From assembly GCA_902791625.1 (NCBI GenBank), contig CADAWN010000017.1, forward strand, positions 1 through 64,000: DNA of 64,000 bases, in the 5' to 3' direction. Of the stretch, positions 14,303-60,918 are shown piece by piece. Numbering within the stretch: the first letter of the stretch is position 1; every line of letters starts with the position of its first letter. Under the pieces are notes generated by a model, which was not told where the DNA came from, searched no databases, and saw only the letters and a list, made by a program, of their open reading frames with translations. A program made the translations under genes and the position numbers. This DNA comes from an uncultured Erysipelotrichaceae bacterium. GTDB taxonomy: Bacteria > Bacillota_I > Bacilli_A > RF39 > UBA660.

Positions 14303-14426
14303 ATATCAATTGACTTGCCATGTGTTGATGACAATTTGGTCGACTAGGGTTTTCTTTCTAAGGCAAGTAGAAAGACTGCATGCATGCGAGTGTATTTTCC
14401 GAAAGGAAAATATGCTCTTTTTTGTT
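14303..14426 (+). ncRNA. Structured leader RNA ending in a strong terminator (possible attenuator or small RNA)
   Basis: Three structural elements are visible. A hairpin CTTTCTA/TAGAAAG (14354-14360 with 14368-14374) has a loop containing GGCAAG. An upstream ACTTGCC (14313-14319) is complementary to GGCAAGT (14362-14368), so a pseudoknot can form. A 13-bp terminator stem, GAGTGTATTTTCC with GGAAAATATGCTC around a GAAA tetraloop, is followed by TTTTTT. The downstream gene has its own AAAGGAGG site just after the terminator. It does not match a riboswitch consensus I know. Confidence 0.6.
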
Positions 14427-14442
14427 TAAAGGAGGAGAAAAT

Positions 14443-15288
14443 ATGAAAAACAAAATAGACATGATTACAAATTTATTTGAAGAAAAAGAAATAAGAAGTA
14501 TATGGGATAGTGAAAAAGAAGATTATTATTTCAGTGTGGTTGATGTTATTTATGCATTAACAAACAGTAGTAATCCAAGAAATTATTGGAATATGTTAAA
14601 AAGCAGATTAAATAATGAAGGAAGTGAACTGTACACAATATGTGTACAGTTGAAAATGATGGCAAAAGATGGAAAGATGAGAGAGACTGATACATTAGAT
14701 ACTGAGGGTATATTTAGACTTATTGAATCAATTCCATCACCTAAAGCTGAACCTTTTAAATTATGGCTTGCAAAACTAGGTAGAGAAAAAGTAGATGAAG
14801 TATTTGATCCATCAAAAGGAATTGACGAGATGATAGATTTTTATTTAAAGAAGGGTTATGATTTAGAATGGATAGAAAAAAGAATAAAAGCTATTATTAA
14901 TCGTAAGAAATTAACTAATGTTTGGAAAGAAAATGGAATTAGTGAAGGAGTGGAGTATGCAATATTAACTAATGATATTTATAAAGAATATTCAGGTATG
15001 ACAGCAAGTGAATATAAAAAGTATAAAGGTATTAGAAAAGAGAGTTTAAGGGATAATATGACAGATATAGAAATGGCACTTATTGATATTGGTGAACTAA
15101 CTACTAGGGATATTGCTAAAAATGAGAAACCCCATGGCTTAGAACAGAATAGACAAGTAGCTAAAAGAGGAGGAAGTGTAGCTAAGAAAACAAAAGACTT
15201 TTATGAAGAAGTAACTGGACTTAATGCGATAACTAATGCAAATTCATTAAAATATCAATATATAGATAATTTAGATAAATTAGAATAA
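14443..15288 (+). CDS. Bro-N/DinD-like protein
   Basis: A 281-residue protein with an N-terminal BRO-type DNA-binding domain ('SVVDVIYALTNSSNPRNYWNMLKSRL... LDTEGIFRLIESIPSPKAEPFKLWLAKLG', about residues 25-110). The C-terminal part matches the DNA-damage-inducible protein D style ('SLRDNMTDIEMALIDIGELTTRDIAK' and 'GLEQNRQVAKRGG'). ATG at 14443 follows AAAGGAGGAG; an upstream in-frame ATG would overlap the terminator and is rejected. Such genes are frequent in phage remnants and gut bacteria. It is expressed only if the leader terminator is read through, or from a promoter I do not see. Confidence 0.8.
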   Translation: MKNKIDMITNLFEEKEIRSIWDSEKEDYYFSVVDVIYALTNSSNPRNYWNMLKSRLNNEGSELYTICVQLKMMAKDGKMRETDTLDTEGIFRLIESIPSPKAEPFKLWLAKLGREKVDEVFDPSKGIDEMIDFYLKKGYDLEWIEKRIKAIINRKKLTNVWKENGISEGVEYAILTNDIYKEYSGMTASEYKKYKGIRKESLRDNMTDIEMALIDIGELTTRDIAKNEKPHGLEQNRQVAKRGGSVAKKTKDFYEEVTGLNAITNANSLKYQYIDNLDKLE

Positions 15289-15344
15289 AAGTATTATATA
15301 CTTGTAAAATTTTAATAATTGAATTACAATGTATATGTACTTAT

Positions 15345-15419
15345 TGCTCCATAGCCAAGTGGTAAGGCAGTGCGCTCTGACCGCACGATGCGTTAGTTCG
15401 AATCTAACTGGAGCAGCCA
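15345..15419 (+). tRNA. tRNA-Gln (anticodon CTG)
   Basis: The acceptor stem TGCTCCA pairs with TGGAGCA, followed by G and an encoded CCA. The D-arm contains AGCCAAGTGGTAAGGC. The anticodon stem GTGCG/CGCAC encloses loop CTCTGAC with anticodon CTG. The T-arm is TTAGTTCGAATCTAA. The 'TAGCCAAG' and 'GGTTCGAATC'-like pattern fits bacterial tRNA-Gln. It lies between the Bro-N gene and the HipA-like gene. Confidence 0.92.
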
Positions 15420-15429
15420 AAGAAAAATT

Positions 15430-15453
15430 AGAGTAATTATTTACTCTTTTTTA
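15430..15453 (+). terminator. Terminator after tRNA-Gln
   Basis: AGAGTAA and TTACTCT form a 7-bp stem with a TTAT loop and a run of T. Confidence 0.75.
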
Positions 15454-15462
15454 TTTTTATGA

Positions 15463-15468
15463 TATAAT
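15463..15468 (+). promoter_or_regulatory. -10 box for HipA-like gene
   Basis: TATAAT within ATGATATAAT (extended -10 form TG-A-TATAAT) lies 25 bases before the GTG-A-GGGG region and ATG of the HipA-like gene. Confidence 0.5.
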
Positions 15469-15492
15469 ACTACGAGTTGTGAGGGGATTATA

Positions 15493-16302
15493 ATGTATAG
15501 AGATAAAGGTTTTGTACGTTGTGATAGTTATTATCACCGTGAAAACAAAATATATCTTGAATGTGAGTTATATTATTTTAAATATGTAAGTAATATTAGT
15601 AATATTTATAATGAATTAATCGCAGAAGAAATAGCTAAAGAATTTGGAGTAAAGAATGCAGTTACTGATATTGGTACTATTGATAATAATATAGTTATTC
15701 TAAGTAAAGATTTTGTTAAAAATAAAAAGTTTATAAAGATGGAAGATATTTTAAAAGAAGTATATCAAGTAAGTGATACTGATTTATATAATAATATAGA
15801 AGATGTAAGTTTTGCCTTGAAACAAAAATATGGAAAAGATTTTAAAGATGATATTACTAAAATGTTTTTATTTGATGTATTAATTGGTAATGGAGATAGA
15901 CATTCTCAAAATTATGGTGTTTTAGAAACTGATAAAACAGTAAGACTTGCTCCTATTTACGATAATGAAGAAATGCTAGGAAGTGACTATCTATTTGAAA
16001 ACATTTATTCATTTGGGGTTAATCGTCAAGACTATTATGCATCAAGTCTTGGAACTTACCATATCTTTGAGAAATTTTTAGATAATAATGATGATTATAC
16101 TTTCTTTATAAATAAAAGAAAAGAGATAATAAATAGAGATAATGTAGAAAAAATATTAACTAATGTAGAAAAGAGATTAGATGGTAATAGAATACCATCA
16201 AGATTAAGAAAGAATATTGAAGAAAGATTTGATTTTAATTATAAAACAATTTCAAGAATAATAAATGAAAGAAAGCAAATAAAAAAACTTGTAAATAAGT
16301 AA
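15493..16302 (+). CDS. HipA-like kinase domain protein
   Basis: A 269-residue protein resembling the C-terminal kinase domain of HipA/CtkA serine-threonine kinases. 'YNELIAEEIAKEFGV' matches the helix after the ATP site. 'LFDVLIGNGDRHSQNYGVL' (about 130-148) carries the catalytic Asp-Arg-His...Asn. 'APIYDNEEML' is the metal-binding segment. It is much shorter than HipA (~440) and no HipB-like antitoxin gene lies beside it, so a persistence toxin role is not supported; a signalling kinase is equally possible. Confidence 0.75.
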   Translation: MYRDKGFVRCDSYYHRENKIYLECELYYFKYVSNISNIYNELIAEEIAKEFGVKNAVTDIGTIDNNIVILSKDFVKNKKFIKMEDILKEVYQVSDTDLYNNIEDVSFALKQKYGKDFKDDITKMFLFDVLIGNGDRHSQNYGVLETDKTVRLAPIYDNEEMLGSDYLFENIYSFGVNRQDYYASSLGTYHIFEKFLDNNDDYTFFINKRKEIINRDNVEKILTNVEKRLDGNRIPSRLRKNIEERFDFNYKTISRIINERKQIKKLVNK

Positions 16303-29725: not shown

Positions 29726-31894
29726 TTGAAAAATAAAAAGAGAAGAAATAATATTAAATATAGTAAATCTTTAATTATTGCTTCTCTTTTTTTAGTTGGA
29801 GTAATGATTATAAGATTAGTACAACTTTCTACAGCTAAAGAAATAGATGGTACAAATTTACAAAAACTTGCCAATAGTAGAACAACTAAAACTGTTAAAC
29901 TAGAAGCTAATCGTGGTACTATTTATAGTGCTAATAAAGATGTACTAGCTCAAAATGTTACTTCATATAAATTAATTGCTTATCTTGATTCAAAGAGAAC
30001 AACAAATAAAAATAAACCACAACATGTAGTAGATAAAGATTTAACTGCTGAAAAACTCGCACCTATTCTTGGTATGGAAAAACAAGATGTATTAAAATAC
30101 TTAAATAAAGAAAATCTTTATCAAACTGAGTTTGGTAATAAAGGAAAAGGCCTAACAGAAATACAAAAAATTGAAATAGAAAATTTAAAATTACCAGGTC
30201 TTGACTTTATAGAAAGTTATAAAAGATACTATCCTAAAGGTAATTTCCTGTCATATACTTTAGGATACGCAACACCAGATGAAGATAAAAATGGTGATAC
30301 AGTTATTAATGGTAAGATGGGTCTTGAACAATACTATAATAATATTTTAAAAGGTGAAGATGGATATGTTACTTATCAAAAAGATTTAAAAGGATATAAA
30401 ATATCTGGTACTAATGAGATAAGAAAAGATGCAGTTCAAGGAAAAGATATTTATTTAACGATTGATAGTAACGTTCAATTTTTTATTGAACAAGCTCTAG
30501 CTAACTCTAAAGCTAATTATGGTTATGAATGGTTTACAATAGTTATATTAGATGCTAAAACTGGTAAAGTTTTAGGACTTTCTTCTAATCCTAATTTTGA
30601 TCTTAATACAAGAAATGATATAGAAAGTTATTTAGATTTAACTATATCTGTTCCATATGAACCAGGAAGTACAATGAAGACTTATACTTATATGGCTGCG
30701 ATGGAAAATAATGTTTATAATGGGGATGCTACATATAAATCTGGTACATATGTAACAAGTGATGGTACTGAAATAGGTGACTGGAATAGAGCTGGTTGGG
30801 GTTATATTTCATATGACAGAGGATATGCTTTATCTAGTAACGTAGGTGTTATTAATTTAATTCAAAATAACATGAATAGTACTATGTTAAGACAATATTA
30901 TAAAAGACTTGGTTTTGGTAAGAAAACAGGTATAACTCTTCCAAATGAACAAGCAGGTAAAATTAATTTTAAATATGAAACAGAAATACTTAATGCAGGA
31001 TTTGGACAAGGTATTACAACAACTCCAATGCAAAATGTTCAAGCTATGACACCACTTACTAATGATGGTATGTTATTAAAACCATATATAGTCGAAAAAA
31101 TAGTAGATCATGATACAGGTGAAGTAGTATTTAGTGGAGCAAGAAAAGAAAAAGAAAGACTTGCATCAACTCAGACAGTTGAAAAAATGTTAAAACTAAT
31201 GGATGATACAGTAAATGGTATAGGTAACACCGGTTCACTTTATAGACTTGAAAGTGGGGAATTAATTGGTAAAACAGGTACAGCTCAAATAGCAGGAGAT
31301 AATGGACGAGGTTATTTATCTGGTAAGTCTGATATAATTTCATCATTTTCTGGAGTATATCCAAAAAGTGATCCTCAATTTATAATTTACGCATCAGTAA
31401 AAAGACCTGGTAATGGTAATCAAAGAGCAGTATCTACTGCAGTATTAGAAATAGTAAGTAATATATCTAAATATTATGGTACTGAAGTATCAGATACAGA
31501 AGGAGAAAAGATTACATCATATAAAATGCCATCATTTAAAAATAAAAGCCTAGAAAGTGTTCAAAAAACACTTAAAGATAATAACATTAATAATGTTGTA
31601 GTAATAGGTAGTGGTAATAAAGTTGTAAATCAATATCCAGTTAAAAATACAACTATAGTAAATAAAGATAGAGTATTCTTACTTACAAATGATAATAATG
31701 TTAAAGTTCCAGATGTAAAAGGATATTCAAGTAAAGAGGCAAAAGAATTATTAAAACTATGTAATATTAAGTCTACTCTTAATGGAAATGGATATGTAGT
31801 AAGTCAAAGTATAGAACCAGGAGTGGATGTAGTAAATAATATGAAAATAGAATTACAGTTAAGTCCAAAATTTGATGCAGATGTCACAACATGA
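29726..31894 (+). CDS. pbpB: Penicillin-binding protein 2B-type transpeptidase (FtsI) with PASTA domains
   Basis: Septal class B PBP of 722 residues. A membrane anchor (~15-32) leads to the dimerisation domain ('LEANRGTIYSANKDVLA') and the transpeptidase domain, with active-site Ser in 'EPGSTMK' (~314), 'SSNVG' and 'KTGTAQ' (~515). Two C-terminal PASTA domains (~590-720) end with 'VPDVKGYSSKEAKELL...'. The start codon is TTG, set by the AAGGACG site; the neighbouring GTG frame is closed. It belongs to the mraZ operon. SpoVD is a close relative and cannot be fully excluded. Confidence 0.92.
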   Translation: MKNKKRRNNIKYSKSLIIASLFLVGVMIIRLVQLSTAKEIDGTNLQKLANSRTTKTVKLEANRGTIYSANKDVLAQNVTSYKLIAYLDSKRTTNKNKPQHVVDKDLTAEKLAPILGMEKQDVLKYLNKENLYQTEFGNKGKGLTEIQKIEIENLKLPGLDFIESYKRYYPKGNFLSYTLGYATPDEDKNGDTVINGKMGLEQYYNNILKGEDGYVTYQKDLKGYKISGTNEIRKDAVQGKDIYLTIDSNVQFFIEQALANSKANYGYEWFTIVILDAKTGKVLGLSSNPNFDLNTRNDIESYLDLTISVPYEPGSTMKTYTYMAAMENNVYNGDATYKSGTYVTSDGTEIGDWNRAGWGYISYDRGYALSSNVGVINLIQNNMNSTMLRQYYKRLGFGKKTGITLPNEQAGKINFKYETEILNAGFGQGITTTPMQNVQAMTPLTNDGMLLKPYIVEKIVDHDTGEVVFSGARKEKERLASTQTVEKMLKLMDDTVNGIGNTGSLYRLESGELIGKTGTAQIAGDNGRGYLSGKSDIISSFSGVYPKSDPQFIIYASVKRPGNGNQRAVSTAVLEIVSNISKYYGTEVSDTEGEKITSYKMPSFKNKSLESVQKTLKDNNINNVVVIGSGNKVVNQYPVKNTTIVNKDRVFLLTNDNNVKVPDVKGYSSKEAKELLKLCNIKSTLNGNGYVVSQSIEPGVDVVNNMKIELQLSPKFDADVTT

Positions 31895-31917: not shown

Positions 31918-32409
31918 ATGAAAAAAATAAGTATTAGTTTGTTTTTAATATTTACAATTATCTTAATAAGTGGTTGTGGTAAAGAAACAATAGAAGATAA
32001 AATGAAACAAGAAGATAATGAGAAAGTACTTCATTGTGTACGAAATGTAACTACTCAAGATAATATAGATGCAGATATAAAATATAGTATCTATTATGAT
32101 GGCGATTATGTTACAAAAACAGTTTCAATAGAAAAAGTAACATCTAAAGATAAAGATATATTAAATCAATATAAAGAGGCATATGAAAAAGTATTTTCTA
32201 GTTATAAAGGGATTGACTACTATGATAATAAAGTAGAAAAAAATGGTAATACAGTTTCAAGTATTACAGTCATCAATTATCAAAAAGTAGATACAAACAA
32301 AATAATTGAAATAGAAGGAAAAGAAGATAATATATTTGAAGAAGATGGAAAAGTAAAAAAAGATACTTTAGTAAATTTTTATAAAAAGTATGGTATTACT
32401 TGTAAATAA
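31918..32409 (+). CDS. Lipoprotein, DUF1307-like
   Basis: A 163-residue lipoprotein with a signal peptide and lipobox 'ISGC' (Cys ~20). The mature part has 'YYDGDYVTKTVSIEKV', a helix and 'SSYKGIDYYDNKVEKNGNTVSSITVINYQKVD', which resembles the DUF1307/YehR lipoproteins. GGAGG precedes the ATG, and it follows pbpB closely. Function unknown. Confidence 0.65.
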   Translation: MKKISISLFLIFTIILISGCGKETIEDKMKQEDNEKVLHCVRNVTTQDNIDADIKYSIYYDGDYVTKTVSIEKVTSKDKDILNQYKEAYEKVFSSYKGIDYYDNKVEKNGNTVSSITVINYQKVDTNKIIEIEGKEDNIFEEDGKVKKDTLVNFYKKYGITCK

Positions 32410-32422
32410 TATCTTCTTTTTT

Positions 32423-32474
32423 GTTCAAATAGTTTAATGGATAAAATACTTTCCTCCGACGAAAGAGATATAGG
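32423..32474 (+). other. tRNA-Arg(CCG)-like 5' half (no T-arm)
   Basis: The sequence has tRNA features in order: GTTCAAA as acceptor 5' strand, TA, D-arm GTTTAATGGATAAAAT, and anticodon arm CTTTC-CTCCGAC-GAAAG with anticodon CCG. AGAT and the T-stem start ATAGG then follow. The T-loop and 3' acceptor are missing; at 32475 it runs into the D-arm of a second tRNA-like sequence. Confidence 0.5.
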
Positions 32475-32475
32475 A

Positions 32476-32542
32476 TAGTTTAGTGGTAAAACAGATCCTT
32501 GGTAAGGATCAGCGGAGAGTTCAATTCTCTCTTTCGGCACCA
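32476..32542 (+). tRNA. tRNA-Thr(GGT)-like sequence lacking its own 5' acceptor strand
   Basis: The D-arm GTTTAGTGGTAAAAC, anticodon arm GATCC-TTGGTAA-GGATC (anticodon GGT) and T-arm GAGAG-TTCAATT-CTCTC are well formed. The acceptor 3' strand TTTCGGC and an encoded ACCA follow. The matching 5' strand (GCCGAAA) is not where it should be. GTTCAAA at 32423 can pair with it in 6 of 7 positions including two G-T pairs, so the whole 120-base unit could share one acceptor stem with two anticodon arms. Confidence 0.5.
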
Positions 32543-60729: not shown

Positions 60730-60735
60730 ATAAGT

Positions 60736-60918
60736 GTCTAGAGGATGCGATTCTAGCAAATATAAAACCGACTAAATTAACGATAAGGGAATTCTGATTA
60801 GTTCTATCCGTGTTGAAAGCCTTTAAGTAGGAATCCTGAAGATAGAAATAAGAATACCCACCTGTACAAATAACAGGTTTTATCGTCGCAAAGACCGCTC
60901 CTTTGGCTTTTTTTTGAG
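60736..60918 (+). ncRNA. ssrS: 6S RNA (ssrS), probable
   Basis: The long gap between the hydrolase and the next gene holds a ~180-base structured RNA. Its ends can pair (GTCT with AGAC, TGCGA with TCGCA, CGATAA with TTATCG). The 3' half has 'GTTGAAAGCCTTTAAG' and 'AATACCCACCTGT...ACAGG', a pattern known from 6S RNAs. A CTTTGGC stem and eight T end it. It would bind sigma-A RNA polymerase in stationary phase. The assignment is by recall of pattern, not by covariance search. Confidence 0.7.

Follow-up and report, generated by a model that had tools for sequence, protein, structure and literature searches.

Joined remnants of tRNA-Arg(CCG) and tRNA-Thr(GGT) genes, probably left by a single deletion, in an uncultured Bacilli genome

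The locus and its intact counterparts

The window (the whole 64,000-nucleotide stretch analysed here) is contig C17 of a metagenome-assembled genome of 1.53 Mb in 61 contigs, 93.5% complete with 6.3% contamination, whose closest relatives are uncultured Bacilli. At positions 32423-32542, two partial tRNAs in the same orientation together span 120 bases (Table 1). The first retains the 5' acceptor strand, the D-arm, the anticodon arm and the 5' strand of the T-stem of tRNA-Arg(CCG), ending in ATAGG; the T-loop, the 3' T-strand, the 3' acceptor strand and the CCA end, 23 nt in all, are missing. It reads GTTCAAA-TA-GTTTAATGGATAAAAT-A-CTTTC-CTCCGAC-GAAAG-AGAT-ATAGG. The second is a tRNA-Thr(GGT) that lacks positions 1-6 (GCCGAT in relatives), and hence an acceptor stem: A-TA-GTTTAGTGGTAAAAC-A-GATCC-TTGGTAA-GGATC-AGCG-GAGAG-TTCAATT-CTCTC-TTTCGGC-ACCA. 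A perfect A+T-rich hairpin followed by T residues lies downstream; judging from its sequence, it probably marks the end of the former tRNA transcript.

Table 1. Features of the locus and its intact counterparts in the same genus
Feature	Position	Strand	Description
Penicillin-binding protein gene, ftsI-like	29726..31894	+	Conserved neighbour; PBP_dimer, transpeptidase and PASTA domains
Lipoprotein-like gene	31918..32409	+	Upstream conserved neighbour anchoring synteny (alignment); no Pfam match
tRNA-Arg(CCG) remnant	32423..32474	+	5' 52 nt; homologues intact at G002:C47:9077-9151, G003:C35:5551-5625 and G001:C25
Putative deletion junction	32474..32475	+	Alignment: 32 extra bp in relatives (TTCGATTCCTATTTCAAGTACCANNTGCCGAT); at most 1 bp common to both ends
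tRNA-Thr(GGT) remnant	32475..32542	+	68 bases, position 7 to CCA
A+T-rich perfect hairpin, then T residues	32562..32590	+	Sequence reading
Intact Arg(CCG)-Thr(GGT) pair	G002:C47:9077-9228		UBA7476, DLOU01000056
Intact Arg(CCG)-Thr(GGT) pair	G003:C35:5551-5702		RGIG8845, JAGAWU010000057

Both genes are intact and in conserved order in two of the three other genomes of the genus (G002 and G003), where 3 bp separate them, and these homologues align over both halves of the fused sequence (E=4e-32 and 6e-31). On these alignments the tRNA identity of both halves is far beyond chance. The same rsmH-ftsI-lipoprotein block precedes the pair in the window, G002 and G003. In the third genome, G001, the Arg gene alone occupies the syntenic position, its Thr gene lying elsewhere, and a more distant genome (L148) carries the same pair with a spacer of 56 bp. 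Compared with G002 and G003, the window is missing exactly 32 bp: 23 from the Arg gene, the 3-bp spacer and 6 from the Thr gene, that is, TTCGATTCCTATTTCAAGTACCA-(3 bp)-GCCGAT. Because relatives have an intact pair in the same place, the fused state appears to be derived, through a deletion inside an ancestral pair.

Alignment with the relatives reveals one further change in the Thr part, a double substitution in the T-stem that preserves pairing (GACAG/CTGTC to GAGAG/CTCTC). The Arg part is otherwise close to its relatives. No decay is seen beyond the deletion itself, so the deletion is either recent or an artefact. These comparisons bear out what the first-pass annotation had described: an Arg(CCG)-like part joined to a Thr(GGT)-like part ending in ACCA, with the 3' end of the one and the 5' acceptor strand of the other lost. 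The intact syntenic pairs and the 32 missing base pairs also support its first suggestion, a deletion between neighbouring tRNA genes, whether real or a collapse in assembly. The intact Thr(GGT) genes of the genus and of some neighbouring genera have a U-U mismatch at acceptor position 6:67 (L020, L021, L022, L023, L024).

tRNA predictions and folding of the fused sequence

Can either half still act as a tRNA? The Rfam tRNA model matches the Thr part only (43.3 bits), and the match is confined to model positions 7-64 and so omits the acceptor stem; at this locus the other Rfam families give nothing but weak, chance-level matches. ARAGORN reports one tRNA-Thr, at 32469-32538, with a forced acceptor stem (TATAGGA/TTTCGGC) in which three of the seven positions do not pair. 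This is not a clean single tRNA, and the objection that such a prediction would have raised to a fused locus, foreseen in the first-pass annotation, falls away. A functional tRNA-Thr(GGT) should have a 7-bp acceptor stem ending at the discriminator base, of which three pairs are missing here; a functional tRNA-Arg(CCG) should have a full T-arm, a 3' acceptor strand and a CCA end, all of which are absent. What the locus does show are the marks of a tRNA pseudogene: homology to functional, syntenic tRNA genes in relatives, and loss of part of the cloverleaf.

There is another way to read the sequence. The fused RNA might function as a double-arm molecule, as the first-pass annotation had proposed in the alternative, or its Thr part might be rescued by an unusual acceptor stem, formed for example between TTTCGGC and either the Arg 5' strand or GACGAAA of the Arg anticodon arm, or else by editing of the 5' end. 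At the sequence level the two anticodon arms and the Thr T-arm are all complete, the double change in the T-stem maintains pairing, and GACGAAA and GTTCAAA can each form six of seven pairs with TTTCGGC. The predicted fold, however, is no more stable than those of shuffled sequences (z = 0.00). In the computed ensemble the Thr T-stem falls to a pairing probability of 0.11, compared with 0.99 in intact relatives, because its 3' strand pairs instead with the Arg anticodon arm; this alternative helix, whose probability is about 0.77, abolishes the Thr T-arm, and the Thr acceptor and T-arm are left mostly unformed. The outer pairing of GTTCAAA with TTTCGGC in six of seven positions, pointed out in the first-pass annotation, is correct as arithmetic. 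As evidence of function it carries no weight, since its mean ensemble probability is about 0.01 and the Arg strands of intact relatives, GCTTGAA and GTTCGAA, also pair with TTTCGGC at six of seven positions in genomes without the fusion.

Nor does the fused arrangement recur in other species. A search of 386 genomes of the family with the fused sequence, which reaches similar sequences only, gave no other Arg-Thr fusion among the matches listed. A pattern scan of the GTDB representatives (about 85,000 species, a collection that possibly leaves out the source genome) for Arg(CCG)-Thr with 5-35 bases between the arms likewise found no fusion. No Thg1-type enzyme for 5' editing or repair scored above cut-off in the genus. 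We regard a functional RNA with two anticodons as unlikely, and for functional readings as a whole, rescue included, the chance seems very slim. Slimmer still is the chance that the fused transcript matures into a working tRNA-Thr, either by taking its 5' acceptor strand from the Arg anticodon arm (GACGAAA) or by having it restored post-transcriptionally; processing of this kind would yield a bacterial tRNA built from the parts of two genes.

Dispensability of the two tRNAs

The tRNA set of the source genome was read from Rfam matches and from ARAGORN run on selected regions. Among the tRNAs found in the assembly there is no second Thr(GGT) or Arg(CCG), whereas the Thr(UGU) and Thr(CGU) genes are undamaged and their acceptor stems pair completely. 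Of 57,540 codons sampled from the source genome, a single one is CGG. For Val, Pro, Ser(UCN) and Leu(CUN), a single U34 tRNA was found both in the source genome and in G003, as was the case for the Ala box in G003, and the reading of four codons by one U34 tRNA therefore appears normal in this genus. On codon usage and gene content, both lost tRNAs look dispensable. Their loss would be tolerated because CGG is nearly absent and because Thr(UGU) and Thr(CGU) together should suffice for every ACN codon, just as other boxes in the genus must each be served by a single U34 tRNA.

Both losses have precedents. The Mollicutes have lost tRNA-Arg(CCG), and CGG is rare in them (PMC3711424). They resemble the source genome in being low in G+C and members of the same broad group, in nearly lacking CGG, in reading Arg codons through ACG and UCU tRNAs, and in still having tadA-like genes, although those found here fall below the curated cut-off and are of uncertain identity. 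The Mollicutes differ in having lost the gene altogether, whereas here it can still be recognised as a remnant joined to another tRNA. Tobacco plastids can do without trnT-GGU and trnL-CAA, both of which can be deleted as non-essential genes (PMC3499367). As in this plastid example of superwobbling, Thr(UGU) is kept and Thr(GGU) lost; the evidence in tobacco is a knock-out, while here dispensability is deduced from gene content. A different fate of CGG is known from uncultured low-G+C Bacilli in which CGG and AGG codons have been reassigned (PMC8629427). The source genome is likewise an A+T-rich Bacilli genome with CGG near zero, yet it gives no sign of reassignment, and the intact tRNA(CCG) of its relatives looks like a normal tRNA-Arg. 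On this sequence comparison, the tRNA(CCG) of the source genome is dying, not changing identity.

Some 20 tRNA genes, most of which do not encode CCA, form a phage-like array at G000:C1:98500-126400 (L002, L003; G000 is the source genome). It was considered as a source of replacements and rejected, as it contains neither Thr(GGU) nor Arg(CCG). One member of the array, a Phe(GAA)-like gene at C1:102598-102655, likewise has no 5' acceptor strand able to pair.

Deletion, misassembly or integration

The explanation we prefer, to which we give a probability of about 0.68, is that a tandem tRNA-Arg(CCG)-tRNA-Thr(GGT) pair was cut by one real deletion of about 32 bp and survives at this locus as a remnant. 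A single event would have removed the 3' part of the Arg gene together with the spacer and six bases from the start of the Thr gene. Neither tRNA would then be expected from any transcript, since the CCA-bearing 3' end of the Arg part is missing and RNase P and ThrRS would find no 5' acceptor strand on the Thr part. The deletion probably left a dead remnant that is expendable to the cell. Understood in this way, the feature is nothing out of the ordinary: a known kind of remnant, left by a small deletion.

The strongest competitor places the fault in the contig: the pair would be intact in the organism, and the assembly mis-joined or collapsed at tRNA sequence common to co-occurring species. 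The junction comes from a single metagenome assembly, and several observations fit such an error. Among the matches listed, the Thr(GGT) sequence shows 96-97% identity across 68 nt in several genera, which makes it a cross-species repeat, and at least seven of the Thr(GGT) matches are found no more than 170 bp from where a contig begins, compared with about 1.7 expected by our own estimate. Contig C34 of the source genome ends 4 bases past a tRNA. The fused genes show no decay other than the deletion. A tRNA-Phe(GAA) at G000:C5:38613-38673 (L001, minus strand), moreover, lacks 12 bp of its D-arm (ATAGAGC in place of ATAGCTCAGTCGGTAGAGC). It is the only tRNA-Phe found on a bacterial contig of the source genome; the gene is intact in G003 and G001, and contig C45 of G002 ends inside tRNA-Phe at GGTAGAGC, the same point, which suggests a place where assemblies break. 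The C5 gene is either an assembly fault or an extraordinary D-armless tRNA, and as the sole copy it can hardly be true. (The truncated tRNAs on C44 and C45 of G002 were rejected as damaged genes, as both are contig ends.)

Other evidence counts against misassembly. At most 1 bp is common to the two sides of the Arg-Thr junction, so a mis-join based on overlap is not obvious. Contigs built from de Bruijn graphs normally hold only k-mers that are present in the reads. Coding density is normal, at 0.85, which argues that the assembly is not generally ridden with deletions. Two other damaged tRNA genes of the source genome are redundant, a pattern explained by selection and not by random assembly error. 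A tRNA-Leu(CAA) (G000:C2, L009:9717-9801, minus strand) is missing one G in its 3' acceptor strand (CAGAGCACCA, where CAGAGGCACCA is expected). A tRNA-Glu(CTC) (G000:C12:68122-68182; L017, L203), intact in G003:C38, has lost its 3' T/acceptor part, which is replaced by sequence with GGAGG and an ATG that opens a reading frame of more than 300 residues. As both are redundant, they give the picture of a tRNA set being trimmed. On balance we favour a real deletion over an assembly collapse, which we consider unlikely though far from negligible.

A scar from the integration or excision of a mobile element that used either tRNA gene for attachment is scarcely probable. tRNA genes are common integration sites, and the literature on fused tRNA genes, mostly mitochondrial, includes one bacterial case, in Rickettsia, of a chimeric tRNA gene beside an integrated cluster (PMC2791219). 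Like the present locus, the Rickettsia peacockii gene is a hybrid in a reducing genome; unlike it, that gene borders an integrated tra cluster, whereas here a simple deletion between adjacent genes is enough. No integrase or element adjoins the locus, whose neighbours (rsmH, ftsI and the lipoprotein gene) are those of its relatives, and the 32 bp that are missing coincide exactly with host tRNA sequence, with no foreign sequence left behind.

If the deletion is real, the locus offers a snapshot of the loss of tRNA-Arg(CCG) after CGG had nearly vanished, a loss thought to precede both the reduced decoding set of Mollicutes and the reassignment of CGG in low-G+C Bacilli. Thr(GGU) would have gone in the same event, and Thr(UGU) would have to make up for it by superwobbling. 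An artefact, on the other hand, would mark tRNA genes common to co-occurring species as weak points of metagenome assemblies.

Some further RNA genes deserve mention. The source genome has two unlike tRNA-Trp(CCA) genes, one at G000:C26:14276-14346 (L011) with the acceptor ATAAGTT and one at C19:14572-14642 (L015) with AGGGGAT; the C26 gene has no counterpart among the G003 tRNAs read. Elsewhere in the window, a Bro-N domain protein and a HipA-like kinase gene (14380-16302) flank a tRNA-Gln(CTG) at 15345-15419, and a 6S RNA lies at 60732-60913 (Rfam RF00013, 51.3 bits).
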